A stretch of DNA of 64,000 bases, taken from assembly GCA_964019415.1 (NCBI GenBank), contig OZ025880.1, positions 2,554,813 to 2,618,812 on the forward strand, in the 5' to 3' direction. The stretch's first letter is position 1. Every line of letters starts with the position of its first letter. Positions 4,704 to 45,600 of this stretch are shown in pieces. A model generated the notes under the pieces. It was not told where the DNA came from. It ran no database searches and saw only the letters and a program-made list of their open reading frames with translations. The DNA comes from Ianthella basta (taxonomy: Eukaryota; Porifera; Demospongiae; Verongiida; Ianthellidae). The position numbers were made by a program, and so were the translations under genes.

Positions 4704-7700
4704 CTAAGTTTCTGTTTCTGTCTCAGTCACTGTGTCATCATCCTCTGAGGTGGGCACTCCAGCACGCAGTTCTGTTATTAGAACAAGGTTTCCAAGTCTC
4801 TCTGCTGGTGCTTCCAACAGTGGCTCAGCATATTCCTCCCTTTCTTCTTCCTGTTTCTGGCAACAGCTCAACTGCCTGCACTTCAGGTACACCTTATTTC
4901 CCAGTAGAATGCCAGGATACAGGAGGGGTAGGTAGATGAGGATCATCTGGATGGAAGCAAAGAACTGTTTTGTCCCAATGGGTGTGTTGAGATCAGTTAT
5001 GTGTAGACTCAGGATGAGGATGAGGGCAAGGTTACCAAGGATGGCTGTATCCAAAGCGTTGAATTTGCGTGAGTTGTAGGGTTGCAAGGCGGCAATGAGT
5101 AGCAGCAAGGCCACAACAAGGAAGATCTGGATACGGAGAGCATCTTCTGCTCTGGGCGTGAACACAGCTACAAGGAGGTGGACAATGCGATGAATAAGGT
5201 AGAGTGAGGAGAAGCTTCTGAAGCGCTCCTTATAGCAGCCTTGAAAGACATTGACAAAGTGGTAGACCCATCTGTCAGTGTAGACATTGCTGCAGAATGT
5301 CTGAATCCTCTGCAGCTTCCTCAATGGTGGCACAGCTATGAGGAATCTACCAAACAGCTGAGGTCCAATGGGAAGAGTGAGGAGAACAAAGGATGGCAGA
5401 AGGACGAACACTAACAGTATGACAATGGCTGGTATGAAGTATGCAATGTGTTGTATGGAGCCATAGGGCACAGAGCCCTGCCACCACACCACCACCTTCC
5501 TCTCCCCATCCTCCCCTGTTATGGTCTGATGGACAAGGATGTAGAAGGAGCTGACCAGAAAGCGAGTGAATCCAAGAATGACAAAGGCAGGAAGTGCTCT
5601 GTCATATGACATGCCATCTGAGTACTTTGCCTTCCATCGTCGCATTCTCCTGAGACATTGGTCCACTCGGTGACAGCATATCCACTTCTCTGCTGACCTC
5701 TCCAGAACAGTGAGTGTGATGGCCACTGTCAGTGGGAACAGTCCAATGGAGTAGTGAAGAAGGAGTGTCTGTAGCAGGGTGAGGTTGGCATTTGGTGCAA
5801 GGCAGTATGGTGGGAGGAGTACTCCAAAGAAGTCCAGGTTCCACATGCCATACAGAAATCGGTATATCCTGACAAATGTATTGTGCACTGGTCCCAATTC
5901 AGCATCACCTCTGATAGTGGAAAAGGCCAGGAGTTGTGCAAACAGCAGAAATGAGTTGAACCGTCCTGACACTAGATCTATGTTGAAGAGCATCAAGACA
6001 AACATGAAGGCGAACATGGGCACCCACTCACTCAGGATCCACACAAGAATGCCCACTTTACTGAGCCCTTCCTCACAATTGACACAGACTGGTCTTATTC
6101 CATTAAAGTTCACTGCAGTTCCTTTTCCTTCCAGGCAGTCACCACAGAGAAGCCCTTTACGATTATTATATTTGCTACAGACTATTTCTTGAAGCTGTTC
6201 CTGGGAATTGTTCTGAGGAAGTGTAATTTGCTGTGTTTGACAATGTCCTGGAGGGCATTGTCCAGTGAAGAACTTCTGTCCATCACAGCTGTGTTGGTCA
6301 TTGGATAGCAGGTATCCAGCCCAGTGGTCTCTCTTCAAGACAGCGCCAATCACCTCAGGGTGACTCTCATTACAGTCTGCTATCCCAGTCACACTGAGCA
6401 CCCCACAGTGACATGTTCCCATATGTCCTGGGCCATATCGGAAGACATAGCCAGGAGGACAGCACTGGAGCTCTATGTTCATCACCAGGAGTAGGTCTGT
6501 GTTGTCCACTGACTGCAGAACCAGCTGCGGAGGTCTACCTACAGCAGATGTGTTGCTTGTGTTGCTAGGGAAGGAATGGTTGGCCATGCCATGTCGCTGT
6601 GGAATGCCATGGAGGATGACTGTAAAGTCAGCAGTGTACTTGGAGAAAGGATCTGGCTCAAAGTGTAATGTGTCATCCATCTTGTTAATCAGTACAGAGA
6701 ATATTGAACTGATGTTATGGCCAAAAACATCCTTTGCACGAGTATAGGGAAGTCTTTTCTGTTTGCCAGGGATGAAGTGCATGGTAAGTGGTTTCCTCAG
6801 GCCATTTATGGCACTATACATAGCAACATAGTTGGGACCTGAAACTATCTCTCTTTGGACTGCTCTCAGTCTCCAGTCCCTGCTAGATAACTGTGATTGA
6901 GAAATGTTCAATGATGGAGTATGCCCACCAGATGTAACATAACAGAATGTAAAGTTGACTTGCCCCTCAAATGATTGCAAGCTAGTAATATGAGCACAAT
7001 TTGCTGCATTTGCGGTAATATTCCCCAGTGTGCTTCCAGTGATGCAGTTTCGAACATCTGATACATAGAATGACTGACCGTCACCTTTGGCAGTGTTGTT
7101 AATGAAAAGGAATGTGACTGTACTGTTTTTCTCTTCCCACTCTTGGTCATACTGGAGAAAACAGTCTGACACTGGTATTGCACCAGGTGCAGAATTAACA
7201 TAAAGTGCACCTCCTCTTTGAAAGGCATAATTTGCAAGGAACTCTAATCTGGTATTTTTGCCAACTCTGATGTAGCTCTCTCCATGGAGAGCAATAGCAC
7301 CACCATGTGTGGCAACACAGAACATTGACACTACAGATGAATTTGTCTGGAGCACAATTTCTGAGTCTAACGCATAAATTCCCTGTGAAGATGCGGCACA
7401 ATTGATGGTTACTCTTTCTGTTGTTATTTGCACTGACTTTGCATAGATTAAATTTTTGTTGGTATCAACCTGAAGAGAAGGGATGATTTTATTAGACACG
7501 TGCTTTAGAAAACACATAAAGGAGTAATAGACTACTTCAAGAAATCGATAACAATTTGATAACATTTTCTGCAGTTGCTTGTATTTTGTCCAAACTCCTG
7601 AACTAACAAACATTACAGTTACATCTGTTAGTCGAATGCCTGTGAACAACCTCTTCCCATGAGTATTAAGTGACTGGAAGGCACATGCACTTCCACTTGC

Positions 7701-9614: not shown

Positions 9615-9628
9615 GTTTCCACTGCAGA

Positions 9629-12121: not shown

Positions 12122-12216
12122 ATCAGTACTTGATTGATTGATTTTTGCTACATTTTTGCTCATGATCTGTTCGCTCATACTGATCAGCATAGCATGAGCC
12201 TCTATGATAATCGTGC

Positions 12217-12871: not shown

Positions 12872-12911
<40 letters not shown>

Positions 12912-14257: not shown

Positions 14258-17200
14258 CTATGTTTCAGTGTCTGTCATGGTCACAGTATCATCATCCTCT
14301 GAGGTGGGCACTCCAGCACGCAGCTCTGTAATTAGAACAAGGTTCCCAAGTCTCTCTGCTGGTGCTTCCAACAGTGGCTCAGCATTATCTTCCCTTTCGT
14401 CTTCCTGTTTCTGGCAGCATCTCAACTGCCTGCACTTGAGGTACACCTTTCTTCCCAGTAGAATGCCAGGATACAGGAGGGGTAGGTAGATGAAGATCAT
14501 CTGGAGGTAAGCATAGAACTGTCTTGTCCCAATGGGTGTGTTGAGATCAGTTATGTGAAGACTCAGGATGAGGATGAGGGCCAGGTTACCAAGGATGGCT
14601 GCATCCAAAGTGTTGAGTTTGTGTGAGTTGTAGGGTTGCAAGGCAGCAATGAGAAGCAGCAAGGCCACAGTGAGGAAGATCTGGATACGTAGAGCATCTT
14701 CTGCTCTTGGTATGAATACAGCCACTAAGAGGTGGACAATACGATGGAAGAAGTAGAAGGAAGATAAGCTTCTGAAGCATTCCTTATAGCAGCCTTGAAA
14801 GACATTGACGAAGTGGTAGACCCATCTGTCAGTGTAGACATTGCTGCAGAATGTCTGAATCCTCTGCAACTTCTTCAATGGTGGCACAGCTATGATGAGT
14901 CTACCAAACAGCTGGGGCCCAATGGGAAGAGTGAGGAGAAGAAAGGAAGGTAGAAGGACGAACACTAACAGTATGACAATGGCTGGTATGAAGTATGCAA
15001 TGTGTTGTATGGAGCCATAGGGCACAGAGCCCTGCCACCACACCACCACCTTCCTCTCCCCACCCTCCCCTGTTAAGGTATGGCTGACAAGGATGTAGGA
15101 GGAGCTGACAATGAAGCGAGTGAATCCAAGAATGACAAAGGCAGGAAGTGCTCTGTCATATGACATGCCATCTGAGTACTTTGCCTTCCATCGTCGCATT
15201 CTCCTGAGGCATTGGTCCACTCGGTGACAGCATATCCATTTCTCTGCTGACCTCTCCAGAACAATGAGTGTGATGGCCACTGTCAGTGGGAACAGTCCAA
15301 CGGTGTAGTGCAGAAGGAGTGTCTGTAGCAGGGTGAGGTGAGCATGTGGTGTGAGGCAGTATGGTGGGAGGAGTACTCCAAAGAAGTCCAGGTTCCACAT
15401 GCCATACAGAAATCGGTATATCCTGACAAATGCATTGTGCACTGATCCCAACTCAGCATCACCTCTGATAGTGGAGAAGGCCAAGAGTTGTGCAAACAGC
15501 AGAAATGAGCTGAACCGTCCTGAGACTAAGTCTATGTTGAAGAGCATCAAGACAAACATGAAGGCAAGCATGGGCACCCACTCACTCAGTATCCATACAA
15601 GAATGCCCACTTTACTGAGCCCTTCATCACAACTGATACACACTGGTCTTATCCCATTGAAGTTCACAGCAATGCTGTTCCCTTCAAGGCAGTCTCCACA
15701 GAGGAGTCCTTTGCGTTTAGACCCAGTGCACACAGCGTCTTGGAGCTCTTGCTGGGAGTTGTTTACAGGAAGTGTAATTGGTTGTGTTTGACAATAACCT
15801 GGAGGGCATTGTCCGGTGAAGAACTTCTGTCCATCACAGCTGTGTTGGTCATTGGATGGCAGGTATCCAGCCCAGTGGTCCCTCTTCAAAACAGCGCCAA
15901 TCTTCTCAGGGTGACTCTCATCACAGTCTGCTATCCCATTCACACTGGGCACCCCACAGTGACATGTTCCCATGTCTCCTGAGCCATATTGGAAGATGTA
16001 TCCAGGAGAACAGCACTGGAGTTCTATGTTCATCACTAGTAGTAGGTCTGTGTTGTCCACTGACTGCAGAACCAGCTGAGGAGGTCTAACTACTGCAGAC
16101 TTATTGCGTGCGTTGCTAGGGAAGGAATGGTTGGCCATGCCATGTTGCTGTGGAATGCCATGGAGGATGACTGTAAAGTCAGCAGTGTATTTGGAGAAAG
16201 AGTTCAGTTCCACAGGTAGTGAGTCCTCCATTTCGTTAATCAGTACTGCGAACACTGAACTGATTTTACTGCCAAACACATCATATACGTGAGTGTAAGG
16301 AAGTCTCTTCTGTTTGCCAGGGATGAAGTGCATGATCACTGCTTTGCTTATGTCAGTAGTGGCACCACCAATATAGTTGGGACCAGACACTATCTCTCGG
16401 TGGACTATACTTTGTCTGTATTCCCTGCTTGAAAAATGTGATATGTTTAATGAAAAGAATTGTTTGTCAATTGTACTATTTCCTGCATAAATGAATGTGA
16501 AGTTGACTTTCCTCATAAACATGATTATACTAATATCATACCCTGCAGGATACTTTGCTAGGTTTGTAGTAGTACTCTTCAGTGTGGTTCTTGAAATGCA
16601 ATCTCTAATATCTGATGTGTAAACTGATAGCCCTTCGTATTTGGCAGTGTTAGCATGGAACTGGAAGGTTACTGCATTTCTGTTCTCGTCCCAGTCTTGG
16701 TCATACTGGAGGAAACAATTTGATATTGGTACTACACCAGGGGCAGAGTCCACGTAAATGGCACCTCCTCGCTGAAAGGCATGGTTTGCAGTGAATGTTA
16801 ATGTGGTATCTCTGGCAACTCTGATGTGGCTCTCTCCATACAGAGCAATAGCACCACCATATGTAGCAACACAGAACACAAACAATGCCGATGTATTAGC
16901 TTGGAACATAATTACAGAATCTAGAGCATAAATTCCCTGTGAAGAAGCTCCACAAATAGCCTGTATGGCACTTGCTGTTATCTGTACTGACTTTGCAAAG
17001 ATTAAGTTTGTGTTGGTTTCTATCTGAAAAGATGGGATGATATTTTGTGCCAATTGCTTTTGTATTAGCATCACGGACTGAATGATCAGAACAGCTGAAA
17101 ACCCATTATACCCATTGGCATGGTCTGCAATTGTCCAATTGTTTGAAGCCAGGAGTTTAACGTTTGTCATTTTTACACCTGTGAACAACCTCTTCTCATG

Positions 17201-19096
17201 TGTAGGAAGTGACTGAAATGCACACGCACTTCCCCTTGCTGCTTTATTGAAGAGTAGTAGTACATTATCAACAATTGCACTATCCCCATTGCTGCCTTCA
17301 AGTTGGTAATGTGGGTGTCTGTAGAGCACAGAAATACCACCACCAACTCCTTGCCCTGCTGTGTTAAAGAGAAATGCACACCCTGAGACACTGACAGTGT
17401 TGTTTGTCCTGAGCACAGCACTGTCAGTAGAGAAATCCACATGAACACCTCCACCCATCATGTCATATTTTTCTGATGGGAATAAGGTATTGGACTCTAA
17501 GATACTTAATAATATTTCTACTGTATTTGCAACTGTTGTATCTTTAAACTGAATAAACATGCCTCCTCCACAGTGTGCTGTGTTGTTGACAAGTGTGATT
17601 TTTGAGAATTGAATAGTGTCATTGCTTGAGGAATCCTGTAGGGAAAGATAGACTCCTCCACCTAGTTCTGCAAAACTGTCATCAAAATGACTGTCGAGTG
17701 CTTTGAATATATTCTGATTAGCAAAGTCTCTGCAGACAACAGCAATACCTCCACCCCTGTGGGCATAGTTTTTCACCAATGAGCTGTTTCTGATTACCAC
17801 TGAATTCCCCATGGCATGCACACTGAATTCAATGTACACCCCAGCTCCCAAGTATGCTCTATGGAGTAATGACAGGACATCAGTCGCTTGTATTTCATTT
17901 CTCCTTGCCCATCCTGTAATGATTACTTGCAGTCCTCTCCTATGTACTTCTGATCTGTTTGCTCCATATAATCCTATTTCTTGAATCTGGACAACATTTT
18001 CCTCTGATTGATCAGTCACTTCAATGGAGAATACACTGCCTGGAGCTGCTTTGTCCTCTATCAAATGCACAGATCCTATTTGAATGTAGTTTCTATTGGA
18101 ATTGTCTTTGAGTTCAATCTGGATGTGTTTATAGTTCTCACCATCCTCTATGACACTAAAAATGTCACTTAATATTACATTGTAAGCATGAACTGTGTCA
18201 TGCAGAGCTACTGAGATGCTATTACCTCTGGTCGATTTCTCGACACCAACGTATGAGAGTGTAATCTCACCGCCCTCTCCATCTCCCATCACAGTGATGT
18301 TGATGCCTGTTAGTTCAAATGTTGTGGTAACGTTATAACTCAGGTGAGCATTTGGACTGTAAACATATATGTGCTTCAGGTGAATTTTCTCCTTTGCTGT
18401 GGAATTATCTCTTGTCTTACTTGTAAGAATTTCAAAGTGTATTCCACTGCCATGAATACCAAAATGGTGTATTTCAACACGCTCCATTACTACATTGCCA
18501 TGTGTGATTGAGGTGTCATATCTGACGAAGGAAACACCTCTTCCATAGGGGCCAGTGATATTTATTAAAGTGGCATATATGATTATTCTCTTACAGTCCT
18601 GAAAGTACAGGGTTGATGAATCTGAGAGAGAGTTACTGTACTGCAGCTGCTCACCACAGTCTTGAAATGCTAAATTATTAATCACAACTTTGTCAGAGTT
18701 GTAAAATGCCAAATTTGCTCTGTCTGTGCACTGAATCCATGCTCTACTACTTTCACAGTCACCCCTTAGTGCTATGGTAGTGACATTCATCAGTGGTGTC
18801 CCATCTAGCAAACTGCCAACTGGCTCAAGTACATGGATGCCACATGAAATGACAATCAATGTATCATTCCCAATGTGTGTAAGAGCATAGTTCAGTGACC
18901 CACATGATTCATTGAGTTGCCGAGGTTGGGGTACTGGGTCACTTGTTGGGGTGTCATGTATACACTGTGGACTATCCTCTCCTGTTGTACTAACCCACAT
19001 GATTCTTCTGTAGTTCTCAGAAGCTACTCCAGTGCAGCATGTGAGCAGCCACGGCACACACACCAGTAGGCTGTGTTTGACTAGAACTGACTTCAT
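14258..19096 (-). CDS. Array gene C: beta-helix, Cys-rich, multi-TM surface receptor (1612 aa)
   Basis: The open frame extends upstream to 19177, but the Met at 19096 (MKSVLVKHSLLVCVPWLL) is chosen. It starts the signal peptide, matches genes A and E, and lies 28 bases inside a probable 5'UTR acceptor. The ectodomain starts WVSTTGEDSPQCIHD and has GGG turns (GGGIAV, GGGVYL, GGGMFI, GGGVHV, GGGISV). CCSPGYIF is near residue 1030 and GLLCGDC near 1133. The multi-TM module starts near 1158, and the tail ends SEDDDTVTMTDTET. The membrane module is almost identical to that of B, D and F, while the first 600 residues differ much more. It is probably a plasma-membrane receptor with unknown ligand. 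It is intact, with no stops or frameshifts. Confidence 0.9.
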   Translation of the reverse strand: MKSVLVKHSLLVCVPWLLTCCTGVASENYRRIMWVSTTGEDSPQCIHDTPTSDPVPQPRQLNESCGSLNYALTHIGNDTLIVISCGIHVLEPVGSLLDGTPLMNVTTIALRGDCESSRAWIQCTDRANLAFYNSDKVVINNLAFQDCGEQLQYSNSLSDSSTLYFQDCKRIIIYATLINITGPYGRGVSFVRYDTSITHGNVVMERVEIHHFGIHGSGIHFEILTSKTRDNSTAKEKIHLKHIYVYSPNAHLSYNVTTTFELTGINITVMGDGEGGEITLSYVGVEKSTRGNSISVALHDTVHAYNVILSDIFSVIEDGENYKHIQIELKDNSNRNYIQIGSVHLIEDKAAPGSVFSIEVTDQSEENVVQIQEIGLYGANRSEVHRRGLQVIITGWARRNEIQATDVLSLLHRAYLGAGVYIEFSVHAMGNSVVIRNSSLVKNYAHRGGGIAVVCRDFANQNIFKALDSHFDDSFAELGGGVYLSLQDSSSNDTIQFSKITLVNNTAHCGGGMFIQFKDTTVANTVEILLSILESNTLFPSEKYDMMGGGVHVDFSTDSAVLRTNNTVSVSGCAFLFNTAGQGVGGGISVLYRHPHYQLEGSNGDSAIVDNVLLLFNKAARGSACAFQSLPTHEKRLFTGVKMTNVKLLASNNWTIADHANGYNGFSAVLIIQSVMLIQKQLAQNIIPSFQIETNTNLIFAKSVQITASAIQAICGASSQGIYALDSVIMFQANTSALFVFCVATYGGAIALYGESHIRVARDTTLTFTANHAFQRGGAIYVDSAPGVVPISNCFLQYDQDWDENRNAVTFQFHANTAKYEGLSVYTSDIRDCISRTTLKSTTTNLAKYPAGYDISIIMFMRKVNFTFIYAGNSTIDKQFFSLNISHFSSREYRQSIVHREIVSGPNYIGGATTDISKAVIMHFIPGKQKRLPYTHVYDVFGSKISSVFAVLINEMEDSLPVELNSFSKYTADFTVILHGIPQQHGMANHSFPSNARNKSAVVRPPQLVLQSVDNTDLLLVMNIELQCCSPGYIFQYGSGDMGTCHCGVPSVNGIADCDESHPEKIGAVLKRDHWAGYLPSNDQHSCDGQKFFTGQCPPGYCQTQPITLPVNNSQQELQDAVCTGSKRKGLLCGDCLEGNSIAVNFNGIRPVCISCDEGLSKVGILVWILSEWVPMLAFMFVLMLFNIDLVSGRFSSFLLFAQLLAFSTIRGDAELGSVHNAFVRIYRFLYGMWNLDFFGVLLPPYCLTPHAHLTLLQTLLLHYTVGLFPLTVAITLIVLERSAEKWICCHRVDQCLRRMRRWKAKYSDGMSYDRALPAFVILGFTRFIVSSSYILVSHTLTGEGGERKVVVWWQGSVPYGSIQHIAYFIPAIVILLVFVLLPSFLLLTLPIGPQLFGRLIIAVPPLKKLQRIQTFCSNVYTDRWVYHFVNVFQGCYKECFRSLSSFYFFHRIVHLLVAVFIPRAEDALRIQIFLTVALLLLIAALQPYNSHKLNTLDAAILGNLALILILSLHITDLNTPIGTRQFYAYLQMIFIYLPLLYPGILLGRKVYLKCRQLRCCQKQEDEREDNAEPLLEAPAERLGNLVLITELRAGVPTSEDDDTVTMTDTET

Positions 19097-19123
19097 TGTG
19101 TTGATGATGTCTTCCACTGTTGA

Positions 19124-19440
19124 CCTGAACGGTAAAGTTGCACAAAATATGAAAGGCAGAGTAACTCTGTTACTCAAGATCTATATACATATGTATATAG
19201 CACAATGCAGAATACGATTGACTCAGAGAGAAAGAATGCCACTTGCTGCAAAATTCACTGATATCATGTGGCAGGTTCCTCACTTGCTCCCTTCCTCCTT
19301 CTCAGCTGGACCGGGTCTGCAGATCTTCAAGTAGCTTCTGTCTGAATTTCAAATTCTCAAATGTATAGACTCCCCAATCCTACCCTCTTGCTGTGGCTGA
19401 ATTGGATAACCCTGGGTGCTATACCACCTCACTTATATAG
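19124..19440 (-). promoter_or_regulatory. TATA box and leader region of gene C
   Basis: CTATATAAGT on the minus strand (about 19431-19440) is a good TATA box. The acceptor GTTCAG ends at 19125. A possible donor GTGAGG is at about 19278-19283, but it is weaker than those of D and F. The region is homologous to that upstream of gene A. Confidence 0.45.
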
Positions 19441-22159: not shown

Positions 22160-22760
22160 TTTATTACTATATATAGCATTGATCACATAAGTAATGAGTG
22201 GTTTGACTGTACATTTGTATCTTTATATATGTTGCTGTTCACCATCCCCTAGCTTCTTTCCATTCAACTAGTTTTCCATTATATTCCTCCTCTCTGTCCT
22301 CCAGTGATGGACAAAGACATGCACTTTCAACTACTACTGTGTGCACTGTAACAACCCTATATAGCTATTGCATTCAGTTGCAGTAAAATATGACAGATTG
22401 TGATTAGCTACAATCGCATTAGAGTCTATCATGCAAATCTAATTATTGCAATTGTGGGATTCATGATGATGCAACCACATATTGCATGGGAGTAAATTCA
22501 ATGCATGTAGTTTTATTACTGTATCCTCTGAGAACTTGCTTACACAATGTTGTGGCAACTAGAGCAAGAATCATGAGCCCCCACATTATTTAAAGGTGAA
22601 TGTGAACACTGATGCAAACCATTCGTAGCCTATACTATTCGAACATACTGGGAAAGTAAATTCAAAGTGAGCAATGATTCAAATCAACTGTGGGAAGTTA
22701 AATCAAATTATATTGTTGTCGATGTACTGAATCAGGAATATTTGGACACAGCAACTATAT
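22160..22760. other. Intergenic sequence with no features seen
   Basis: I find no coding, RNA or repeat structure that can be supported here. Confidence 0.4.
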
Positions 22761-22938
22761 GTTTCTGTCTCTGTCTCAGTGATATGGTTATGCACTCCAA
22801 CATGTATGCTCTTCTGCTATTAAAGCAAAGCATCCTGCATGTCTACCTGAGGTGCTTGTAGCAGTGGCTCAGCATTATCCTCCCTTTGTTCTTCCTGTTT
22901 CTGGCAGCATCTCAACTGCCTGCACTTCAGGTACACAG
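22761..22938 (-). pseudogene. 3'-end relic of an array gene next to the duplication breakpoint
   Basis: The minus strand reads VYLKCRQLRCCQKQEEQRED and then NAEPLLQAP, matching the cytosolic tail start of gene E, followed by unrelated codons and a stop. GTTTCTGTCTCTGTCTCAGT at 22761-22780 matches the TETET-coding 3' end. The middle of the tail is replaced or scrambled. The relic ends exactly where homology to 39886 onward begins (22939), so it marks a recombination or deletion junction. Confidence 0.7.
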
Positions 22939-28676: not shown

Positions 28677-28690
28677 GATTCTACCGGAGA

Positions 28691-32109: not shown

Positions 32110-32455
32110 CATGTATTTAAACCACTGACTGTAGGAGTACAGTAAGGTGAATATTACTGAAGGCGGCAATCATGTTGATTGGAGTAAGATTCATCATTCT
32201 TTAAGTGCTTCTTTTAACTGTGCTGAGTATAGTCTGAGTAGGGAATCATCGCAGTCCTCATCTGTATACTACAGTAGCAAACTGTGTGAGTTAGGTGCGA
32301 ACTGCGTGTGTTGCTAATTATAATTACCATGACCACTTCCATGTATGTAATTCTGTGCCCAATTTATGCTTAAAAAGAAAGCCTGTAATGGACAGTTTGC
32401 TACCAGGAACTTTACTATATTGTATTTGCAGCTTACAGTTGATGCCATCAACATT
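32110..32455 (+). promoter_or_regulatory. Probable leader exon and 5'UTR intron of gene E
   Basis: TATTTGCAG ending at 32431 is a good acceptor 24 bases before the ATG. GTGAGT (32286-32291) is a possible donor giving an intron of about 146 bases. TATTTAAAC at about 32114 is a weak TATA candidate. Confidence 0.4.
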
Positions 32456-35400
32456 ATGAAGCACCAGCTCTTCAAACACAGCCTACTGGTGTGTGTGCTG
32501 TGGCTGCTCACATGCTGCACTGGAGCAGCTTCTGAGGACTACAGAAGAACCATGTGGGTTAGTACAACAGGAGAGGATAGTCCACAGTGTATACATGACA
32601 CACCAACAAGTGACCCAGTGCCCCATCCACGGCACCTTAATGAATCATGTAGGTCACTGAACTATGCTCTTACACACATTCAGAATGTGACCTTCATTGT
32701 CATTGCATGTGGCACCTATGAACTCAAGCCAGTTAACAAGTTGCTAGATGGGGTTCAGCTGTTAAATATCACAGGCTCATGCTTTTATGAAGATTTACAC
32801 GATCAACCCAAAATTCAATGTACTGATGGAGCAAACTTGGAATTACATAACTTGCAAAGAGTTGTGTTCACTCACTTGGCATTCCAAGGATGTGGTAAAC
32901 AAATGCAGCAGAGAGATTCCAGCTTCTCAGCATCCACTCTCTATTTTCAAGACAGTCTAACAGTGACTATGTATCATGTTGATATTGATATAACTAGCTC
33001 TTATGGAACAGGAATTTCCTTAATTTATCGTGAGAGCACAACCACTAACAGAGAAGTAGTTTTGGACACTGTTAAAGTAGACCATCACGGCATCAATGGC
33101 AATGGCATTCACTTTGAACTTCACACAGACGAGAAAACCAATGTCAACCGGCTAGGTATGAAAATTCGATTAAATGATGTAAGGGTTAACGGTGAATTCA
33201 GCCCCCAAATTCTCAATCTTGCCCAGACATTCTCTGGAATCAATATCAGTGTGATGGGACATGGGGAGGGAGGTGAGATTGCACTAACCAAAGTCAATGT
33301 CAGGGACAGTGGCATTGTGTTGGCTTTGCTTGACACAGTGCATGATTGCAAGGTGTCACTCAGAGACTCGGTTGTTTCAGATACATTCTCAGACAGTTTT
33401 AGCACCATGCCCAAAAGTGGTAGTACAATCACTGAGTCACCATCAAATGGGTCCAAGTATGTTGCAAGAAGGTCTACTACGTACTCTAGAGTCAAAATTG
33501 AACTTAGAGATAAGTCAGTAGGCAATCACATACAAATTGAAAATGTCCTTGTGATCCAGAAAGATGAAATACCAGGGAGTGCAATCTCCATTAAAATCAC
33601 TGACCATTCAGAAAGCAACACTGTCCTGCTTGAAGAAGTAGAATTGCGGGGGCCAGAAGCCTTAAGTGAGAACAGCAGAGGACTACAAATAACAGTGACA
33701 GGGTGGGCAAGGAGGAATCAAATACTAGCAACTGATCTACAATCTTGGCGGCACAGAGCTGGTGTGGGTGCCGCAGCATACATTGAATTCAGTGGACATG
33801 CCATGAGGAATGTGGTGAGATTTAAAGATGGCATATTCTGCCAAAGCTTTGCTATTAGAGGTGGCGGGATTGCCATCGTGTACAGGGAATTTGCCACTCA
33901 CAATATCTTTAAGATGGACCATAGCCACATATATGACAATAATGCGGAACTGGGTGGTGGAGTTTACTTCAGGCAAGAGGATTCTTCAAACAACAACACT
34001 ATTTGGTTACAAGTCATTGTACTTCTTAACAACACTGCACATAGTGGAGGAGGCATGTTCATTCAGTTTCAAGATTCATCTATAGCAAATAGGATAGAAA
34101 TGGTCCTCAGTATGCTTGCACATAATGCACTGCTACCATCAAAGAAGTATGACATGATGGGTGGAGGTGTTCATGTGGACTTCTCCACTGTCAGTGCCAA
34201 TGTCAGGACAGACAATATTATCAGTTTTACAAGGTGTTTGCTTATGCTTAACAGAGCAGCACAAGGAGTAGGTGGGGGTATATCAGTGCTCTCCAAAACC
34301 TCACGCTACCAAGGTGACAATGGAAATGAAGTGATTTTATATGCTGTAGTATTCCTTAAAAACATGGCTGTAAGCGGAAGTGCATGTGCCTTCCAGTCAC
34401 TTCCTACTCATGGGAAGAGGCTGTTCAGAGGTGTCAGAGTAGTGCAATGTTATATGTTCCCACACCTATCTCTGTTTCAAATTGTGAACATTACTGACCC
34501 CTTCAGAATGCCAGATCAGTTCACAGAAGACTATCTCATTGCTTTCTTGCAAACATCAATTGAAATTATAAAGCAGCAGCTTCCACAAACCATCACCCCT
34601 TCTCTTCGGGTGGAAACAAACACGAACATGATATTTGCACAGTCAGTACAGATAACAGCAGGTAACTTAGACATCACTTGTGGAGCTTCTTCGCAGGGAA
34701 TGTATGCAATAGATACAGAAATTGTGTTACAGCCAAGTACACATTCAGTTTTTCAGCTCTGTGTTGCCACACATGGTGGTGCAATTGCCCTGTATGGAGA
34801 GAGCTACATCAGAGTTGCTGAAAATGCAATCCTTCAATTCCATCAAAACTATGCCTTTCAGAGAGGAGGTGCCATTTATGCTAGTTCTCCACCTTGTCTG
34901 GTACCAGTGCCAAACTGTTTCCTCCAGTTTGACGTCGACCAAGATTGGGAAAGGAAAAGAAGTTCATTTGTCTTTAGGAACAACTCTGCAAAGGCTGAAG
35001 GACAGTCAGTTTATGTTACTGACATTCGAAAGTGCCTCTCTCAAAGAATTATGAAGAATAATACCAGCATCTCACAACCACACCAGTACCCCCAAAAGCT
35101 AAGTTTAAGCCTGTTTGATGTACTTTACTTTAATTTTACAACTGCGTGTCAATCAAACAACTGTAGTGGCAGCAGTCCTTGGAAGGTATTGCGACATGAG
35201 ATAGTGTCTGGTCCCAGCCATGTAGGCAGTGAACCTGGTGACTTGGACAAACCTGTAGGCCCGCACTTCATCCCTGGCAAACAGAAGAGATTACCGTTCA
35301 CTCATGTATATGATGAGCTTGGCAGTACTGTCAGCACATTGTTCATTGCATTGATTAGCAAGATGGATCATTCAGTGCCTACACAACTGGATCCCCTCTC

Positions 35401-37342
35401 TATCTACACTACTGACTTTACAGTCATCCTCCATGGCATTCCAAAGCAACATGGCATGGCCAACCATTCCTTCCTTACCATCACAGCCAACACATCAAAT
35501 TCTGAAATAGTTCAATCTCCTCAGCTGGTACTGTGGTCAGTGGAGAACACACACATACTCCTGGTAATGAACATAGTGTTCCAGTGCTGTCCTCCTGGCT
35601 ACATCTTCCGATATGGCTCAGGAGACATGGGAACATGTCACTGTGGGAAACTCAGTATGCTTGGGATAGCAGACTGTAATGAGAGTCAACCTGAGGTGAT
35701 TGGTGCAGTCTTGGAGAGAGACCACTGGGCTGGATACGTGCCATCTAATGACCAGCACAGCTGTGATGAACAAAAGTTCTTCACTGGACCATGTCCTCCG
35801 GGATACTGTCAAACACAGCAAATCACCCTTCCTCAGAACAATTCCCAGCAAGCACTCCAGGAAGTAGTGTGCGCTGGGTCCAATCGTAAAGGGCTTCTCT
35901 GTGGAGACTGCCTGGAAGGAAAAGGAACTGCAGTGAACTTCAATGGGATAAGACCAGTCTGTGTCAATTGTGAGGAAGGCCTCAGTAAAGTGGGCATTCT
36001 TGTGTGGATCCTGAGTGAGTGGTTTCCCATGTTCGCCTTCATGTTTGTCTTGATGCTCTTCAACATAGATCTAGTGTCAGGAAGGTTCAACTCATTTCTG
36101 CTGTTTGCACAACTCTTGGCCTTCTCCTCTATCAGAGGTGATGCTGAGTTGGGAGCAGTGCACAATGCATTTGTCAGAATTTACCGATTTCTGTATGGCA
36201 TGTGGAACCTGGACTTCTTTGGAGTGCTCCTCCCACCATACTGCCTCACACCACATGCCCACCTCACACTGCTACAGACACTCCTTCTTCACTACTCCAT
36301 TGGACTGTTCCCACTGACAGTGGCCATCATATTCGTTGTTCTGGAGAGGTCAGCAGAGAAGTGGATATGCTGTTACCGAGTGGACCAATGCCTCAGGAGA
36401 ATGCGTCGATGGAAGGCAAAGTATTCTGGTGGCATATATTATGACAGATCACTTCCTGCTTTTGTCATCCTCACCTTCACCCGCTTTCTAGTTAGCTCCT
36501 CTTACATCCTTGTCAACCAGATCATCACAGGGGAGGATGGGGAGAGGAAGGTGGTGGTGTGGTGGCAGGGCTCTGTGCCCTATGGCTCCATACAACACAT
36601 TGCTTACTTCATACCAGCCATTGTCATACTGCTAGTGTTTGTCCTTCTACCCTCCTTTCTTCTCCTCACTCTTTCCATTGTACCTCAGCCATTTGATAGA
36701 CTCATCATAGCTGTACCACTACTGAGGAAGCTGCAGAGGATGCAAAACTTCTGCAACAATATCAACACTGAAAGATGGGTCTATCATTTTGTCAGCAACT
36801 TTCAAGGCTGCTACAAAATGTGTTTCCGAAGTTTCTCTTCCCTCTACCTCTTCCATCGCATTATCCACCTCCTTGTGGCAGTGTTCATACCCAGAACAGA
36901 AGATGCTCTGTGCGTCCAGATCATTCTTACTGTGGCCTTGTTGCTACTCATTGCCACCTGCCAGCCTTACAATTTATGCCAGCTCAACAATTTGGATGCA
37001 GCCATCCTAGGTAACCTGACTGTCATCCTCATTCTGGCTCTTCGTATAAATGATCTTAGCACCCCCTTCAGCACAAGACAGTTCTATGCTTCCATCCAGA
37101 TGATCCTCATCTACCTACCCCTCCTGTATCCGGGCATTCTACTGGGAAGAAAGTTGTACCTGAAGTGCAGGCAGTTGAAATGCTGCCAGAAACAGGAAGA
37201 ACAAAGGGAGGACAATGCTGAGCCACTGTTGGAAGCACCAGCAGAGAGACTTGGGAACCTTGTTCTACTAACAGAACTGCATGATGAAGAGCCCACTCCG
37301 GAGGATGAAGATGCTGTGTCTGAGACAGGGACCAAAATATAG
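32456..37342 (+). CDS. Array gene E: inverted member, beta-helix, Cys-rich, multi-TM surface receptor (1628 aa)
   Basis: This is the only array gene on the plus strand. The frame opens at 32366, but codons before 32432 fall in an apparent 5'UTR intron (TATTTGCAG acceptor), so the Met at 32456 (MKHQLFKHSLLVCVLWLL) is chosen. WVSTTGEDSPQCIHD follows the signal peptide. GGG turns (GGGIAI, GGGVYF, GGGMFI, GGGVHV, GGGISV) fill about 460-610. CCPPGYIF is near residue 1043, GLLCGDC near 1146, and the multi-TM module begins near 1173. The tail is the most diverged of the array (ELHDEEPTPEDEDAVSETGT) and lacks the TETETET end. The membrane module also has more substitutions than in B, C, D and F, as expected if its orientation reduced sequence exchange with them. 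No lesions are seen. Confidence 0.9.
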   Translation: MKHQLFKHSLLVCVLWLLTCCTGAASEDYRRTMWVSTTGEDSPQCIHDTPTSDPVPHPRHLNESCRSLNYALTHIQNVTFIVIACGTYELKPVNKLLDGVQLLNITGSCFYEDLHDQPKIQCTDGANLELHNLQRVVFTHLAFQGCGKQMQQRDSSFSASTLYFQDSLTVTMYHVDIDITSSYGTGISLIYRESTTTNREVVLDTVKVDHHGINGNGIHFELHTDEKTNVNRLGMKIRLNDVRVNGEFSPQILNLAQTFSGINISVMGHGEGGEIALTKVNVRDSGIVLALLDTVHDCKVSLRDSVVSDTFSDSFSTMPKSGSTITESPSNGSKYVARRSTTYSRVKIELRDKSVGNHIQIENVLVIQKDEIPGSAISIKITDHSESNTVLLEEVELRGPEALSENSRGLQITVTGWARRNQILATDLQSWRHRAGVGAAAYIEFSGHAMRNVVRFKDGIFCQSFAIRGGGIAIVYREFATHNIFKMDHSHIYDNNAELGGGVYFRQEDSSNNNTIWLQVIVLLNNTAHSGGGMFIQFQDSSIANRIEMVLSMLAHNALLPSKKYDMMGGGVHVDFSTVSANVRTDNIISFTRCLLMLNRAAQGVGGGISVLSKTSRYQGDNGNEVILYAVVFLKNMAVSGSACAFQSLPTHGKRLFRGVRVVQCYMFPHLSLFQIVNITDPFRMPDQFTEDYLIAFLQTSIEIIKQQLPQTITPSLRVETNTNMIFAQSVQITAGNLDITCGASSQGMYAIDTEIVLQPSTHSVFQLCVATHGGAIALYGESYIRVAENAILQFHQNYAFQRGGAIYASSPPCLVPVPNCFLQFDVDQDWERKRSSFVFRNNSAKAEGQSVYVTDIRKCLSQRIMKNNTSISQPHQYPQKLSLSLFDVLYFNFTTACQSNNCSGSSPWKVLRHEIVSGPSHVGSEPGDLDKPVGPHFIPGKQKRLPFTHVYDELGSTVSTLFIALISKMDHSVPTQLDPLSIYTTDFTVILHGIPKQHGMANHSFLTITANTSNSEIVQSPQLVLWSVENTHILLVMNIVFQCCPPGYIFRYGSGDMGTCHCGKLSMLGIADCNESQPEVIGAVLERDHWAGYVPSNDQHSCDEQKFFTGPCPPGYCQTQQITLPQNNSQQALQEVVCAGSNRKGLLCGDCLEGKGTAVNFNGIRPVCVNCEEGLSKVGILVWILSEWFPMFAFMFVLMLFNIDLVSGRFNSFLLFAQLLAFSSIRGDAELGAVHNAFVRIYRFLYGMWNLDFFGVLLPPYCLTPHAHLTLLQTLLLHYSIGLFPLTVAIIFVVLERSAEKWICCYRVDQCLRRMRRWKAKYSGGIYYDRSLPAFVILTFTRFLVSSSYILVNQIITGEDGERKVVVWWQGSVPYGSIQHIAYFIPAIVILLVFVLLPSFLLLTLSIVPQPFDRLIIAVPLLRKLQRMQNFCNNINTERWVYHFVSNFQGCYKMCFRSFSSLYLFHRIIHLLVAVFIPRTEDALCVQIILTVALLLLIATCQPYNLCQLNNLDAAILGNLTVILILALRINDLSTPFSTRQFYASIQMILIYLPLLYPGILLGRKLYLKCRQLKCCQKQEEQREDNAEPLLEAPAERLGNLVLLTELHDEEPTPEDEDAVSETGTKI

Positions 37343-40659: not shown

Positions 40660-43600
40660 CTATGTCTCTGTCTCCGTCTCAGTCACTGTGTCATCATCCT
40701 CTGAGGTGGGCACTCCAGCACGCAGTTCTGTTATTAGAACAAGGTTCCCAAGTCTCTCTGCTGGAGCTTCCAACGGTGGCTCAAAACGATCCTCCCTTTG
40801 TTCTTCCTGTTTCTTGCAACATCTCCATTGCTTGCACTTCAGATACACTTTCTTTCCTAGACGAATGCCAGGATACAGGAGGGGTAGGTAGATGAGGATC
40901 ATCTGGACGGAAGCATAGAACTGTCTTGTTCCCATGGGTTTGTTGAAGTCAGTTATGTAAAGACTCAGGATGAGGATGAGGGCCATGTTACCAAGGATGG
41001 CTGCATCCAAATTGTTGAGTTTGCATGAAGTGTAGGGTTGCAAGGCGGCAATGAGTAGCAGCAAGGCTACAGTAAGAAAGATCTGGATGCAAAGAGCATC
41101 TTCTGCTTTTGGTAATAACACTGCCACAAGGAGGTGGACAATGCGATGAAAAAGGTAGAGGGAAGAGAAGCTTCTGAAGCGCTCCTTGTAGCAGCCTTGA
41201 AAGACATTGATGAAGTGGTAGACCCATCTGTCAGTGTAGACATTGCTGCAGAATGTCTGCATCCTCTGCAGCTTCCTCAATGGTGGCACAGCTATGATGA
41301 GTCTACCAAACAGCTGAGGTCCAATGGGAAGAGTGAGGAGAAGATAGGATGGCAGAAGGACGAACACTAGCAGTATGACAATGGCTGGTATGAAGTAAGC
41401 AATGTGTTGTATGGAGCCATAGGGCACAGAGCCCTGCCACCACACCACCACCTTCCTCTCCCCATCCTCTCCTGTGATGGTCTGGTTGACAAGGATGTAG
41501 GAGGAGCTGACCAGGAAGCGAGTGAATCCAAGAATGACAAAGGCAGGAAGTGCTCTGTCATATGACATGCCATCTGAGTACTTTGCCTTCAATCGTCGCA
41601 TTCTCCTGAGACATTGGTCCACTCGGTGACAGCATATCCACTTCTCTGCTGACCTCTCCAGAACAATGAGTGTGATGGCTACTGTCAGTGGAAACAGTCC
41701 AATACAGTAGTGCAGAAGGAGTGTCTGTAGCAGGGTGAGGTTGGCATTTGGTGCAAGGCAGTATGGTGGGAGGAGCACTCCAAAGAAGTCCAGGTTCCAC
41801 ATGCCATACAGAAATCGGTATATCCTGACAAATGCATTGTGCACTGGTCCTAATTCAGCATCACCTCTGATAGTGGAGAAGGCCAGGAGTTGTGCAAACA
41901 GCAGAAATGAGTTGAACCTTCCTGACACTAGGTCTATGTTGAATAGCATCAAGACAAACATGAAGGCAAGCATGGGCACCCACTCACTCAGAATCCACAC
42001 AAGAATACCCACTTTACTGAGCCCTTCCTCACAACTGGTGCAAACTGGTCTTATTCCATTGAAGTTGACTGCTATGCCTTTCCCTTCAAGGCAGTCTCCA
42101 CAGAGGAGTTCTCTACGATCAGACCCAGCACACACCATTTCGTCGAGCTTATGCTGAGAGTTGTTTTCTGGAAGTGTGATTTGCTGTGATTGACAGTATC
42201 CTGGAGGGCATTGTCCAGTGAAGAACTTCTGCCCATCACAGCTGTGTTGGTCATTAGATGGCAGGTATCCAGCCCAGTGATCTCTCTCCAAGACTGCACC
42301 AATCATCTCAGGGTGTTTCTCATTACATTTTGCTATTCCATTCACAGTTAACATCCCACATTGACATGTTCCCATGTTTCCTGAGCCATATTTGAAGACA
42401 TAGCCAGGAGGACAGCACTGGAGTACTATGTTCACCACCAGGAGTAGGTCTGTGTTGTCCACTGACTGTAGAACCAGCTGTGGAGGTCTAACTGCTGCAG
42501 TTATGTTGCTTGTGTTGCTAGGGATGGAATGGTTGGCCATGCCATGTCGCTGTGGAATGCCATGGAGGATGACTGTAAAGTCATCAGTGTACTTGGAGAA
42601 AGGATTCAGCTCCACTGGTATTGAGTCATCCATAGTGTTAATCAGTAATGCAAACATTGAATTGACAGTACTGCCAAACTCATCATATGCATGAGAATAA
42701 GGTAGTTTCTTCTGTTTACCTGGGATGAAATGTATGGTCATCAGTTTCCTCAAGTTAACTGTAGCACCACCAATGTGGTTGGGACCAGACACCATTTCTC
42801 TTTGGACAACATTTAGTCTGTATTCCTGGCTTGTTAATCGTGAAATGTATATTCGTGAAGTATGCATGCTATGTGATTCATTGACAGATACATTATAAAT
42901 GAAAGTCATTTTGACTTGCCTCACAAATGAACAGCTAACATGATACTCTTCAGGGAATATAACTAAGTCTGTACGTGTGGTGGTATTCTTCAATGTGGTT
43001 TCAGAGATACAGTTTCGTATATCTGATACATAAACTGATTTTCCTTCGGCTTTGGCAGTGTTGCCATTGAATATGAGTTCCCTGTTCTCTTCCCATTCTT
43101 GGTCATACTGGAGGAAACAGTCTGACACTGGTACCTCTCCATGGCCAGGTGGAGAGCTAACATAAATGGCACCTCCTCTCTGAAAAGCATGATTTGCTTT
43201 AAAGCGTATTGTTACATTTTTGGCAACTCTGATGTAGCTCTCTCCATACAGAGCAATAGCCCCACCATGTATGGCAACACAATTCTGTAGCAATGACTGT
43301 GTATTTTCTTGGAATACAATTTCTGAGTCTAGTACATAAATCCCCTGTGAAGAAGCTCCACAAATGATACCTACTTGGCACACTGTTATTTGTACTGACT
43401 TCGTAAAGATTAAGTTTGTGCTGGTGTCCATCTGGAAAGAAGGGTTGATGGATTGCAACAATTCCTGTTGTAAGCGGGCCATGGACTGTTTGGCTGATAT
43501 AGCAACATATTGACCTTGCTTGGTCAATAGCATTAGAAATTGCTGAAAATCATCCATTGTTTGTGATGCTGAAGTAGCTGCATTAACATTTTTCATTCTG

Positions 43601-45600
43601 ATACCTCTGAACAATTTCTTGTCACCAGTAGGAAGTGACTGGAAGGCACATGCACTTCCACTTGCTGCCCTGTTGTAGAATAGTGTTACAGCATCCATAA
43701 TCACACTATCTCCATTGTCTCCTTGGTAGTATGAGTGTTCGTAGAGCACAGATATACCTCCGCCAACTCCTTGTCTTGCTGTGTTTAGCCACATCATACA
43801 GCCTGTGAAATTGACAATGTTGGCTGTTCTGAAGGTGACACTGACAGTGGAGAACTCCACATGAACACCTCCACCCAGCATGTCATATTTCACCGATGGC
43901 AGCAATGTATTGTTGGTAATTTCCGCATTGAATAAATCCATCCTGCTCCTTTCTGTTCTATCTTGAATCCTAATGAACATACCCCCACCACTGTGTGCTG
44001 TGTTGTGCTGACTGAATATATCAACCATGTTAAATGTGTTACTGATTGATGAATCCTGAAGGATGATGTAAAGTCCGCCCCCAAGTTCTGCAGTATTTCT
44101 GAGCATAGCAGTGGCGATTATTTTAAGTACATTTTGCATGGCAAAGTCTTTGATTGAAACAGCAATGCCACCACCTCTAGAGGCATGATTATCATTAAAT
44201 TGGCTGGCTCTCACTTTCACTTCATTCCTAGTGGCATATCCACTGAATTCAATATACCCCCCAGCTCCACAATGTGCACTGTAAAGTCCAGAACGTAACT
44301 GAGACACTATAATTCTATTGTTCCTTGCCCATCCTGTAACCATTACTTGTACTCCACTCTCATGGGCAGCTGAGCTGTTTGAGCCCTGCAGAAACACATA
44401 TTGAATCTTAACATTATTGTCCCTTGATTGATCAGTAACGTCAATGGTGAGTGCACTACTTGGATGTGGTTTCAATGCAAGCATTGTACCATATCTAATT
44501 AGTATGTTGTTTTCTGCAGAGCTGCCCCTCAGTTCAATCTTAATGCTAGAATATGTTATGGAATTGTTTGTATCCAACTGTTGCTGATTCAGTGTGCTGG
44601 TACTCTCTGTCATGCTTGTACTGCCCTGTAATTGGTTCTCCCACCCTTCTATTACAGAAAATCTGATAAGTTGTACATTGAAACTGCGCACTCTGTCAAG
44701 TAGTGCTACTAATATGCCACTACCTCTTGATCTGGTGGGAGCTCTCTTAAGATCGACTTCTGAAAGAAAAATCTCATTGCCCTCTCCATCTCCTGTCACG
44801 GTAATGTTAATGCTTGTAATGTTACAACCAGGGTGGTCTTCTACAATGACAACAAGTATATTCTTCAGTTCAATTTTCTCTGTTACTGAAGGAGCATCTC
44901 TGGTCCTACTTGTGAAAACATCAAAGTGCATCCCACTGCCATGAATACCAAAATGATATATTTCAACAAAGTGCATGGAATATTCAGCCCCATGCGTGAC
45001 TGTGGTGTTTGGTCTGAATACAGAAATGCCACTTCCATAGGGGCCAACTATATAAATGACAATGGCGTGTAGAAATATTTGTCTGCAATCATGAAAATAG
45101 AGAGTTGATGAATCCAGGACAGAATCACTGTAAAGCAGTTGCTCACCACAGTCTCGGAATGCCAAAGACTCAATATCAAGTGCCTCAGCATTGTAGAATG
45201 CTAAGTTTGCTCTTTCAGTGCAGTGGATCACAGGGAAATACACACAATTTGGATGTCCCTTTATGCCTACATTTGCAATGCCCATCAGTGGAGTGTGATC
45301 TGAAGAACTGTCACCAGGCACAAGTGCATGGGTGCCACACCCAACGACAACTAAGGTATCATTCCCAATGTGTTTAAATGCATAGTTCAATGACCCACAT
45401 GTTTCATTAGCACCTCGTGGATGGGGTACTGAGCCTCCTGCTAATGTGTCATGTATACACTGTGGACTATCCTCTCCTGTTGTACTAACCCACATGATTC
45501 TTGTGTAGTTCTTGGAAGCTGTTGCATTGCAGCATGAGAGTAGCCATAGTACTGACAACAGTAGGCTGGGCTTGACTAGAGTCAGCTTCGATGCAATCAT
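40660..45600 (-). CDS. Array gene F: beta-helix, Cys-rich, multi-TM surface receptor (1646 aa)
   Basis: It starts at MIASKLTLVKPSLLLSVLWL, nine bases inside a 5'UTR acceptor (CTTTAG ending at 45610). A signal peptide is followed by WVSTTGEDSPQCIHD near residue 37. The GGG-turn beta-helix includes GGGIAV, GGGLYI, GGGMFI, GGGVHV and GGGISV, and a Ser/Thr/Asn-rich insertion near 320-345 resembles that of gene D. CCPPGYVF is near 1063. LLCGDC is near 1166 and is preceded by RRE rather than the RKG of the other genes. The multi-TM module starts near 1191, and the tail is identical to that of D at its end. The nucleotide sequence from the Cys-rich region to the stop is nearly that of D. Intact. Confidence 0.9.
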   Translation of the reverse strand: MIASKLTLVKPSLLLSVLWLLSCCNATASKNYTRIMWVSTTGEDSPQCIHDTLAGGSVPHPRGANETCGSLNYAFKHIGNDTLVVVGCGTHALVPGDSSSDHTPLMGIANVGIKGHPNCVYFPVIHCTERANLAFYNAEALDIESLAFRDCGEQLLYSDSVLDSSTLYFHDCRQIFLHAIVIYIVGPYGSGISVFRPNTTVTHGAEYSMHFVEIYHFGIHGSGMHFDVFTSRTRDAPSVTEKIELKNILVVIVEDHPGCNITSINITVTGDGEGNEIFLSEVDLKRAPTRSRGSGILVALLDRVRSFNVQLIRFSVIEGWENQLQGSTSMTESTSTLNQQQLDTNNSITYSSIKIELRGSSAENNILIRYGTMLALKPHPSSALTIDVTDQSRDNNVKIQYVFLQGSNSSAAHESGVQVMVTGWARNNRIIVSQLRSGLYSAHCGAGGYIEFSGYATRNEVKVRASQFNDNHASRGGGIAVSIKDFAMQNVLKIIATAMLRNTAELGGGLYIILQDSSISNTFNMVDIFSQHNTAHSGGGMFIRIQDRTERSRMDLFNAEITNNTLLPSVKYDMLGGGVHVEFSTVSVTFRTANIVNFTGCMMWLNTARQGVGGGISVLYEHSYYQGDNGDSVIMDAVTLFYNRAASGSACAFQSLPTGDKKLFRGIRMKNVNAATSASQTMDDFQQFLMLLTKQGQYVAISAKQSMARLQQELLQSINPSFQMDTSTNLIFTKSVQITVCQVGIICGASSQGIYVLDSEIVFQENTQSLLQNCVAIHGGAIALYGESYIRVAKNVTIRFKANHAFQRGGAIYVSSPPGHGEVPVSDCFLQYDQEWEENRELIFNGNTAKAEGKSVYVSDIRNCISETTLKNTTTRTDLVIFPEEYHVSCSFVRQVKMTFIYNVSVNESHSMHTSRIYISRLTSQEYRLNVVQREMVSGPNHIGGATVNLRKLMTIHFIPGKQKKLPYSHAYDEFGSTVNSMFALLINTMDDSIPVELNPFSKYTDDFTVILHGIPQRHGMANHSIPSNTSNITAAVRPPQLVLQSVDNTDLLLVVNIVLQCCPPGYVFKYGSGNMGTCQCGMLTVNGIAKCNEKHPEMIGAVLERDHWAGYLPSNDQHSCDGQKFFTGQCPPGYCQSQQITLPENNSQHKLDEMVCAGSDRRELLCGDCLEGKGIAVNFNGIRPVCTSCEEGLSKVGILVWILSEWVPMLAFMFVLMLFNIDLVSGRFNSFLLFAQLLAFSTIRGDAELGPVHNAFVRIYRFLYGMWNLDFFGVLLPPYCLAPNANLTLLQTLLLHYCIGLFPLTVAITLIVLERSAEKWICCHRVDQCLRRMRRLKAKYSDGMSYDRALPAFVILGFTRFLVSSSYILVNQTITGEDGERKVVVWWQGSVPYGSIQHIAYFIPAIVILLVFVLLPSYLLLTLPIGPQLFGRLIIAVPPLRKLQRMQTFCSNVYTDRWVYHFINVFQGCYKERFRSFSSLYLFHRIVHLLVAVLLPKAEDALCIQIFLTVALLLLIAALQPYTSCKLNNLDAAILGNMALILILSLYITDFNKPMGTRQFYASVQMILIYLPLLYPGIRLGKKVYLKCKQWRCCKKQEEQREDRFEPPLEAPAERLGNLVLITELRAGVPTSEDDDTVTETETET

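Follow-up and report, generated by a model that had tools for sequence, protein, structure and literature searches.

Which molecules sponges use to distinguish self, symbionts and pathogens is a long-standing question. Among the described systems closest to the genes analysed here are the LRR receptors of plants, for which passages of PMC8226289 report that variable residues cluster on the LRR surfaces, and the chlamydial Pmp proteins, characterised in extracts from two papers as a beta-helix with FxxN and GGA[ILV] repeats (PMC10715098, PMC11166332). Receptor expansion has its own precedents: the SRCR receptors have undergone massive expansion in the sponge Amphimedon (as stated in an excerpt of PMC10855680), and the sea urchin Sp185/333 genes are presented in part of PMC5103432 as a clustered, diverse and unstable immune gene family. 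The extracts returned by a limited search of open-licence papers, PMC4302439 on sponge GPCRs among them, contained no description of the receptor family considered below, which we regard as probably a large family of cell-surface recognition receptors in which a homogenised anchor carries a hypervariable beta-helix face.

Genes of the window and their family

The window, i.e., the whole stretch of 64,000 nucleotides that was analysed (G000:C13:2554813-2618812), lies on contig C13 of a 209 Mb assembly of 96 contigs. It contains five intronless ORFs of 1,636–1,681 aa (genes B, C, D, F and the inverted E) that have a common architecture, in which the signal peptide is followed by a long ectodomain made up in part of repeated N-x-A-x-x-GGG coils, then by a Cys-rich stretch and a hydrophobic module, and finally by a tail that is acidic and TETETET-like. 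The features of the window are as follows.

1..1066, minus strand: gene A, the 5' end of a further copy, which runs off the window
4704-9614, minus strand: gene B, intronless ORF of 1,636 aa, with signal peptide, predicted beta-helix ectodomain (about residues 27-1020), Cys-rich juxtamembrane part, multi-pass module and acidic tail
5262..5936, minus strand: gene B, membrane core K (residues 1227-1451), where silent divergence is lowest
7128..8411, minus strand: part of the gene B ectodomain with the coils used for the stripe test, residues 402-829; rule-found coil anchors at residues 433, 465, 496, 527, 599, 766 and 795
14258-19177, minus strand: gene C, architecture as in B
22760..22936, minus strand: relic of another copy's C-terminal part, lying between genes C and D
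23718-28763, minus strand: gene D, intronless ORF, mosaic partner of F
32366-37342, plus strand: gene E, inverted, a more diverged member
40660-45600, minus strand: gene F, architecture as in B, mosaic partner of D
49279..63602, minus strand: distant relative, apparently with introns, present as exon-like pieces

The ORF of gene C is listed from a TTG, its likely start being the internal Met at residue 28; the membrane module of gene E is 83% identical to that of B, and the homology of gene A changes frame near position 250. Across the 26 copies with an unbroken frame, mean pairwise protein identity per 50 alignment columns is 0.90–0.95 in columns 1351–1650 and 0.82–0.87 from column 1651 on, vs. 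0.29–0.75 in columns 1–1200, and gaps per 50 columns reach 38% in the variable N-terminal part as against 0–3% in columns 1351–1800. This profile, together with the presence of QGSVPYGSIQHIAYFIPA in all five genes (E included), bears out an earlier sequence-only reading of the locus, which had described a near-constant membrane module and tail joined to a variable ectodomain; that reading had placed the variation in the first 600 residues, where variability is indeed found, but the variable part extends over about the first 1,000–1,050 residues.

Domain searches assigned the proteins to no described family. A Pfam scan of B–F gave no family over its cut-off; Chlam_PMP (PF02415) scored 19.8 bits on D and 14.3 on F, below the cut-off of 20.6, and had no match in the other three. 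Gene B had no match at E 1 among PDB sequences. As regards a seven-transmembrane receptor topology, the hydropathy of B has seven peaks after the signal peptide, and the structural model of the membrane module is worthless (mean pLDDT 30). Six membrane modules searched against Pfam matched three families at E 0.1–0.97, none of them credible, and hence gave no credible match to a GPCR or other multi-pass family; a PDB profile search with the module gave one match at E 1.1. A bacterial relative of the module was sought with two peptide patterns in bacterial and archaeal contigs and was rejected, 0 of 79 candidates being confirmed by tblastn. The membrane module thus appears to have no recognisable relative among the Pfam families, PDB entries and bacterial and archaeal contigs searched.

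The distant relative at 49.3–63.6 kb has four main pieces, at 63024-63602, 58948-59724, 57353-57742 and 49279-49521. Along the family profile they correspond, in this order, to positions 13-73, 418-539, 840-881 and 1498-1574, with weak matches for the first piece (E 0.002) and the last (E 0.04). One of its exons contains a Chlam_PMP repeat (58945-59676) that passes the Pfam cut-off of 20.6 with 42.4 bits (E 4e-11). The intronless family may have been derived by retroposition from a gene like this one. A reverse-transcriptase ORF lies at 60048-61550 on the plus strand (RVT_1, E 7e-46) and is apparently a retroelement within an intron of the relative; a repeat stretch at 55287-56363, with repeats such as HTHTPHTVWF, gives overlapping ORFs that are probably spurious.

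Genome searches scored the best candidates only, so that the family counts are lower bounds: full protein B gave 29 scored matches, the membrane module of B 88, and the module of a member on contig C4 100, at 99 places. These places are distributed over C4 (36), C13 (31), C15 (13), C86 (11) and C7 (3), with one each on C1, C3, C6, C11 and C21, and a family of at least 99 places is far beyond chance. At 70 of the 99 places (63 of 88 without C86) the match is free of stops and the open frame is 1,600 aa or longer, the copies at the other 29 being broken or shortened. Contig C86 is, by hit spacing, colinear with C4:10.861-10.953 Mb and repeats that part of C4, with 1 difference in the one 3,851-base stretch compared; it is a near-identical second copy, a haplotype or an assembly duplicate, and is uninformative on polymorphism. 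Several genes of the family may have been duplicated very recently as a 53-kb block, to judge from equal-scoring hits 52,877 bases apart in C4:10.873-10.953 Mb, which are also present on C86.

Mosaic copies and the form of exchange

Codon analyses used a set of 29 genes, made up of 25 of the 29 protein-B loci, E and three fetched copies, with dS calculated by Nei-Gojobori; four loci with interrupted frames (L012, L021, L023, and L031) were left out of all codon work. The trees of five segments of the gene all conflict with one another (AU p<0.004 for the 29 genes, p<0.002 for the 20 genes on C13), and the two halves of the ectodomain reject each other's trees with delta lnL of 278 and 303. In the collar and in each half of the ectodomain, none of 200 simulations without recombination reaches the observed homoplasy, which exceeds the simulated mean by 2.2 s.d. 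in the core and 1.5 s.d. in the tail, a test to be taken as indicative since the simulated sets have fewer informative sites than the real ones (e.g., 167 vs. 218). Exchange among copies is well supported.

Two gene pairs illustrate its products. Between D and F, pS is 0.22–0.49 over the first 1,200 codons and 0.05–0.15 thereafter, and the 3' flanks diverge by 1–5% for about 750 bp, beyond which they cannot be aligned. In L011 and L013, the 1.5 kb upstream of the gene differ by 0–2%; pS is 0 for codons 1–75 and 0.07–0.23 thereafter, and the 3' flanks are unalignable, so that near-identity is confined to the promoter region and the first 75 codons. A common end of the gene with its flank, beside an unalignable flank at the other end, is what an intragenic crossover leaves, and both pairs, like the segmental duplication on C4 that hits of equal score some 53 kb from each other suggest, speak for an origin of the mosaics in unequal crossing-over and segmental duplication within tandem arrays rather than in conversion. 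We regard this as a distinct possibility, the likeliest of the alternatives, and one to which the detection tests lend some weight, short conversion tracts not being clearly detected. In nine runs of a GENECONV-like permutation run test no pair reached global significance, and the 3' part showed a mild excess of single-pair signals (p<0.01 in 10 of 210 C13+E pairs vs. 2.1 expected); PHI, for which L029 and L033 (loci that contain Ns) were left out as well, fell below 0.05 in 1 of 30 tests and showed no clear tracts; and the core alone rejected none of seven single clades tested, among them a young clade of five on C13 (L011, L013, L017, L020, and L022; p=0.34). The earlier claim of conversion as such is therefore not upheld by the GENECONV-like and PHI results, crossover explaining some pairs equally well.

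The distribution of the core speaks against simple crossover, which would need rearrangement for the inverted copies L007, L008, and L010 to share the core fully, as they do, and for copies on other contigs to share it in part; moreover, most C13 flanks are unalignable straight after the stop codon, the first 100 bp being aligned in 27 of 210 pairs (E included). Core pS is 0.129 between copies of opposite orientation (51 pairs) vs. 0.143 between copies of the same orientation (139 pairs), and since inverted copies share the core as fully, conversion is favoured. On these sequence comparisons, conversion and unequal crossover are both candidate forms of the exchange.

Selection on the predicted beta-helix ectodomain

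An AF2 model of the ectodomain based on the five window sequences consists of repeated strands (whole-model mean pLDDT 56.9, pTM 0.62); ten-residue blocks are mostly at pLDDT 70–91 over model residues 141–540 (about B residues 165–564), with four dips to 34–58. The 50 matches listed by Foldseek against the PDB are weak (best E 0.015; TM on query 0.08–0.29) and, judged by their names, are presumably for the most part beta-helix proteins. From this modelling, the ectodomain is likely to include a region with a right-handed beta-helix fold.

Site models M1a and M2a were fitted with home-made likelihood code, the IQ-TREE branch lengths being scaled by one factor, on gap-free alignment columns at least one column away from any gap. 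M2a was preferred over M1a in all six ectodomain tests, with omega 3.2–7.4 on 8–14% of codons beside 39–51% of codons at omega 0.00–0.16. In the two halves of the ectodomain, 2dL was 77.3 and 96.7 for the clade of five, 19.3 and 117.9 for C15, and 199.4 and 301.5 for C13; the clade of five belongs to the C13 set and hence is not independent of it, and C15 is independent. The core yielded no positive-selection class (2dL 0.0, 0.3, and 0.0 for the clade of five, C15 and C13). In 20 data sets simulated for the second half of the C13 ectodomain with no positive selection and a random segment tree per 40 codons, 2dL reached at most 7.8, with 2 of 20 above the usual limit of 5.99, as against 301.5 observed; recombination as the source of the ectodomain omega signal is therefore rejected. 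In the same order of data sets, 2dL was 0.0, 3.6, and 5.1 in the tail and 0.0, 0.0, and 10.2 in the collar, of which the last is slightly beyond the null and, like other such values, deserves caution. The diversification that the sequence-only reading had attributed to the ectodomain is confirmed in the form of very strong diversifying selection on part of it (2dL 19.3–301.5).

The selected sites follow the coils. Anchors, defined as the first residue (often N) of the xxA...GG motif, lie 31–32 residues apart in B at residues 433, 465, 496, and 527, which makes a coil of about 31 residues; in the autocorrelation of the selection posterior over residues 380–620, lag 31 ranks top in C13 and in the clade of five and second in C15. 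The stripe was defined as the six residues before an anchor. Hand-chosen anchors were picked after the selected sites were known, and rule-found anchors come from a sequence rule on B that was written once the motif had been noticed and is thus not fully blind. With hand-chosen anchors, the mean posterior in C13 at offsets −6 to −1 is 0.62, 0.04, 0.90, 0.20, 0.87, and 0.67, and no other offset from −16 to +15 exceeds 0.10. With rule-found anchors, 15 of 36 stripe sites vs. 16 of 325 outside sites are selected in C13 (p=5e-9), 8 of 36 vs. 5 of 334 in the clade of five (p=3e-6) and, more weakly, 5 of 34 vs. 16 of 328 in C15 (p=0.037), contrasts by which chance placement of the selected sites is rejected. 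C15 and the clade of five, which lie on different contigs, have four selected sites in common vs. 0.84 expected (p=0.008).

Silent change is itself somewhat raised at offsets −6 to 0 (0.39–0.66 vs. 0.22–0.48 elsewhere); the contrast is therefore one of omega and does not come from a low silent background. By direct counting, the clade of five has a stripe dN/dS of 4.98 (95% 2.83–11.43); the excess over 1 is marginal in C15 (1.92, 0.98–4.05; with hand-chosen anchors 1.31, 0.76–2.19) and absent from the single pairs L015/L019 (0.96) and D/F (0.68). Amino-acid identity in the stripe is 0.13 vs. 0.59 in the rest for C13+E and 0.35 vs. 0.77 for C15; in three C4/C11 genes it is 0.23 vs. 0.46, with residues −3 and −5 as variable as the stripe. 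The selected sites are alternating residues, one strand per coil, that recur coil after coil as a stripe. Because they alternate within the strand, their side chains should lie on one side of the sheet, a side presumed to face outward in view of the conservation of the positions in between, and the stripe sites would then form one exposed surface; at the level of sequence, positive selection is concentrated on what would be one solenoid surface, less strongly in C15 and not in the two single pairs.

In the mechanism that we propose, copies in arrays would exchange segments and the membrane module would be kept alike by exchange together with purifying selection, and the ectodomain would be under positive selection at alternating positions, one strand per coil; both steps have computational support. 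The stripe, if exposed, would be the ligand-contacting face; recombination might both spread a working anchor and shuffle ectodomain segments; and the homogenised module could couple every variant to one common signalling or trafficking partner, signalling being pure conjecture. Our guess at the ligand class puts microbial surfaces first and self-markers next. That these are self-recognition molecules (for allorecognition or cell adhesion) rather than microbe sensors is rather unlikely: large predicted surface proteins with a selected series of strands in a sponge would suit that role, for which polymorphic arrays are expected. The results do not discriminate between the two roles, the one comparison of near-copies having given 1 difference in 3,851 bases.

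Silent divergence, constraint and comparison with known systems

The recognition-receptor reading takes the membrane part as homogenised by exchange, and silent divergence bears on this directly. Median dS in the ectodomain and the membrane part is 0.624 and 0.199 for C13 pairs (190 pairs), 0.704 and 0.316 for C13 × C15 (100 pairs), 1.84 and 0.66 for C13 × C4/C11 (60 pairs) and 1.21 and 0.45 for C4/C11 among themselves (three pairs); in the 26-gene set, membrane dS is below ectodomain dS in 207 of 210 C13+E pairs, all 105 C13 × C15 pairs and all 10 C15 pairs. Uniform silent divergence along the gene, which the sequence-only reading had set against itself, is absent, the value falling about threefold in the membrane half. 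In the core (B residues 1227–1451), whose three windows have silent divergences of 0.14, 0.16, and 0.17 in C13 pairs, dS within the young clade is 0.142, close to the 0.157 and 0.188 of its two ectodomain halves, yet for the other C13 gene pairs it is 0.167, four times less than their ectodomain halves (0.652 and 0.676). Over six bins of ectodomain dS from <0.25 to >0.8 (190 pairs), mean core dS is 0.142, 0.155, 0.144, 0.148, 0.192, and 0.193. When the ectodomain tree is scaled and site rates are allowed to vary, the within/between ratio expected for the young clade is near 0.37; the observed ratios are 0.678 in the collar, 0.884 in the core and 0.803 in the tail, each of them reached by 0 of 500 no-recombination simulations.

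Since core divergence is about the same whether the ectodomains of a pair are young or old, and the simulations fail, exchange is implied and not purifying selection alone, and constraint alone, or uniform constraint, is rejected on the plateau of core dS and the 0 of 500 simulations. Of the proposal that gene conversion acts on one half of the gene, exchange in the 3' half survives with this plateau; its confinement to that half does not, given the conflict between the ectodomain-half trees and the 5' near-identity of L011 and L013.

It is accordingly improbable that purifying selection acts without exchange, the membrane half being slower at synonymous sites as well through constraint at the codon or RNA level, although several observations point that way. 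Core omega is 0.19–0.22, which indicates strong purifying selection on the membrane part; core dS is low even for C13 × C4/C11 (0.32–0.48); and fourfold-site GC in C13 genes is 0.52–0.57 in the membrane part vs. 0.30–0.33 in the ectodomain, a rise that is also seen in C15 and C4/C11 and could be codon bias or GC-biased conversion. The 3' part is also unevenly low, with silent peaks of 0.41–0.49 (columns 1261–1380) and 0.42 (columns 1621–1680) that recur between groups and hint at position effects, so that a further contribution from silent constraint or from an interchromosomal effect is possible. Against constraint alone, pairs with ectodomain dS of 0.65–0.70 differ in core dS according to whether both genes lie on C13 (0.167, other C13 pairs) or one lies on C15 (0.275). 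Core and ectodomain divergence retain a residual correlation (Mantel rho 0.34 and 0.37, p 0.04 and 0.02), and purifying constraint may add to exchange in the membrane part.

Fourfold-site GC of C13 genes drops to about 0.27 in the last 36 residues. At the signal-peptide end of these genes, median silent divergence is 0.28 over the first 60 columns, and pS in the first 60–75 codons is 0.00 in L011/L013 and 0.04 in B/L007; this end is perhaps a second homogenised island.

Least credible of all is relaxed, non-adaptive constraint in a decaying family, in keeping with the 29 broken or shortened places and the frame-shifted copy and relic of the window, but opposed by an omega 3–7 class that lies beyond the recombinant null beside codons at 0.00–0.16, by the phase-locked selected sites and by the long open frames at 70 of 99 places.

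Taken as a recognition-receptor family with an exchanged anchor and a selected stripe, these genes can be set beside the systems described above. Chlamydial Pmp proteins have repeats that resemble the N-x-A-x-x-GGG coils of B–F, and an exon of the neighbouring relative passes the Chlam_PMP cut-off; Pmp proteins, however, are bacterial autotransporters, whereas B–F score below the Pfam cut-off and have a hydrophobic module of the multi-pass kind towards the C-terminus. The expanded SRCR families of sponge and sea urchin are alike as receptor expansions and differ in having an unrelated domain; this genome itself has at least 150 scored SRCR matches (of 1,173 first-look candidates), with clusters on C2, C6, C8, C16, and C21, a very large expansion that agrees with the one published for Amphimedon and points to a sponge. 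Sp185/333 is likewise a clustered, diverse family, but of different proteins, with an instability tied to repeats. The lamprey VLRs and other LRR receptors (TLR, plant NLR) share with the sponge family solenoid repeats, variable surface residues and exchange between sequences; their fold is the LRR, whereas the sponge family has a predicted beta-helix, a multi-pass module and complete germline genes. By analogy, the sponge family, which was placed in none of the families tested, would work like the LRR-based recognition families.

The family is a concrete candidate for sponge recognition, with named residues of B to test as a putative exposed stripe, namely 461/464, 492/495, 521/523/525, 553/555/556, 760/762/764 and 791/793, and, if the reading is true, would extend to the beta-helix the range of folds on which hypervariable surfaces for recognition are known to have arisen. 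We advance only tentatively, at somewhat less than an even chance, the fuller proposal of a germline-encoded hypervariable beta-helix receptor system in an early-branching animal, with tens of copies, an exchanged anchor and a selected stripe, perhaps serving allorecognition or symbiont discrimination in the sponge, in which the stripe would play the part taken in VLRs by the concave LRR face.
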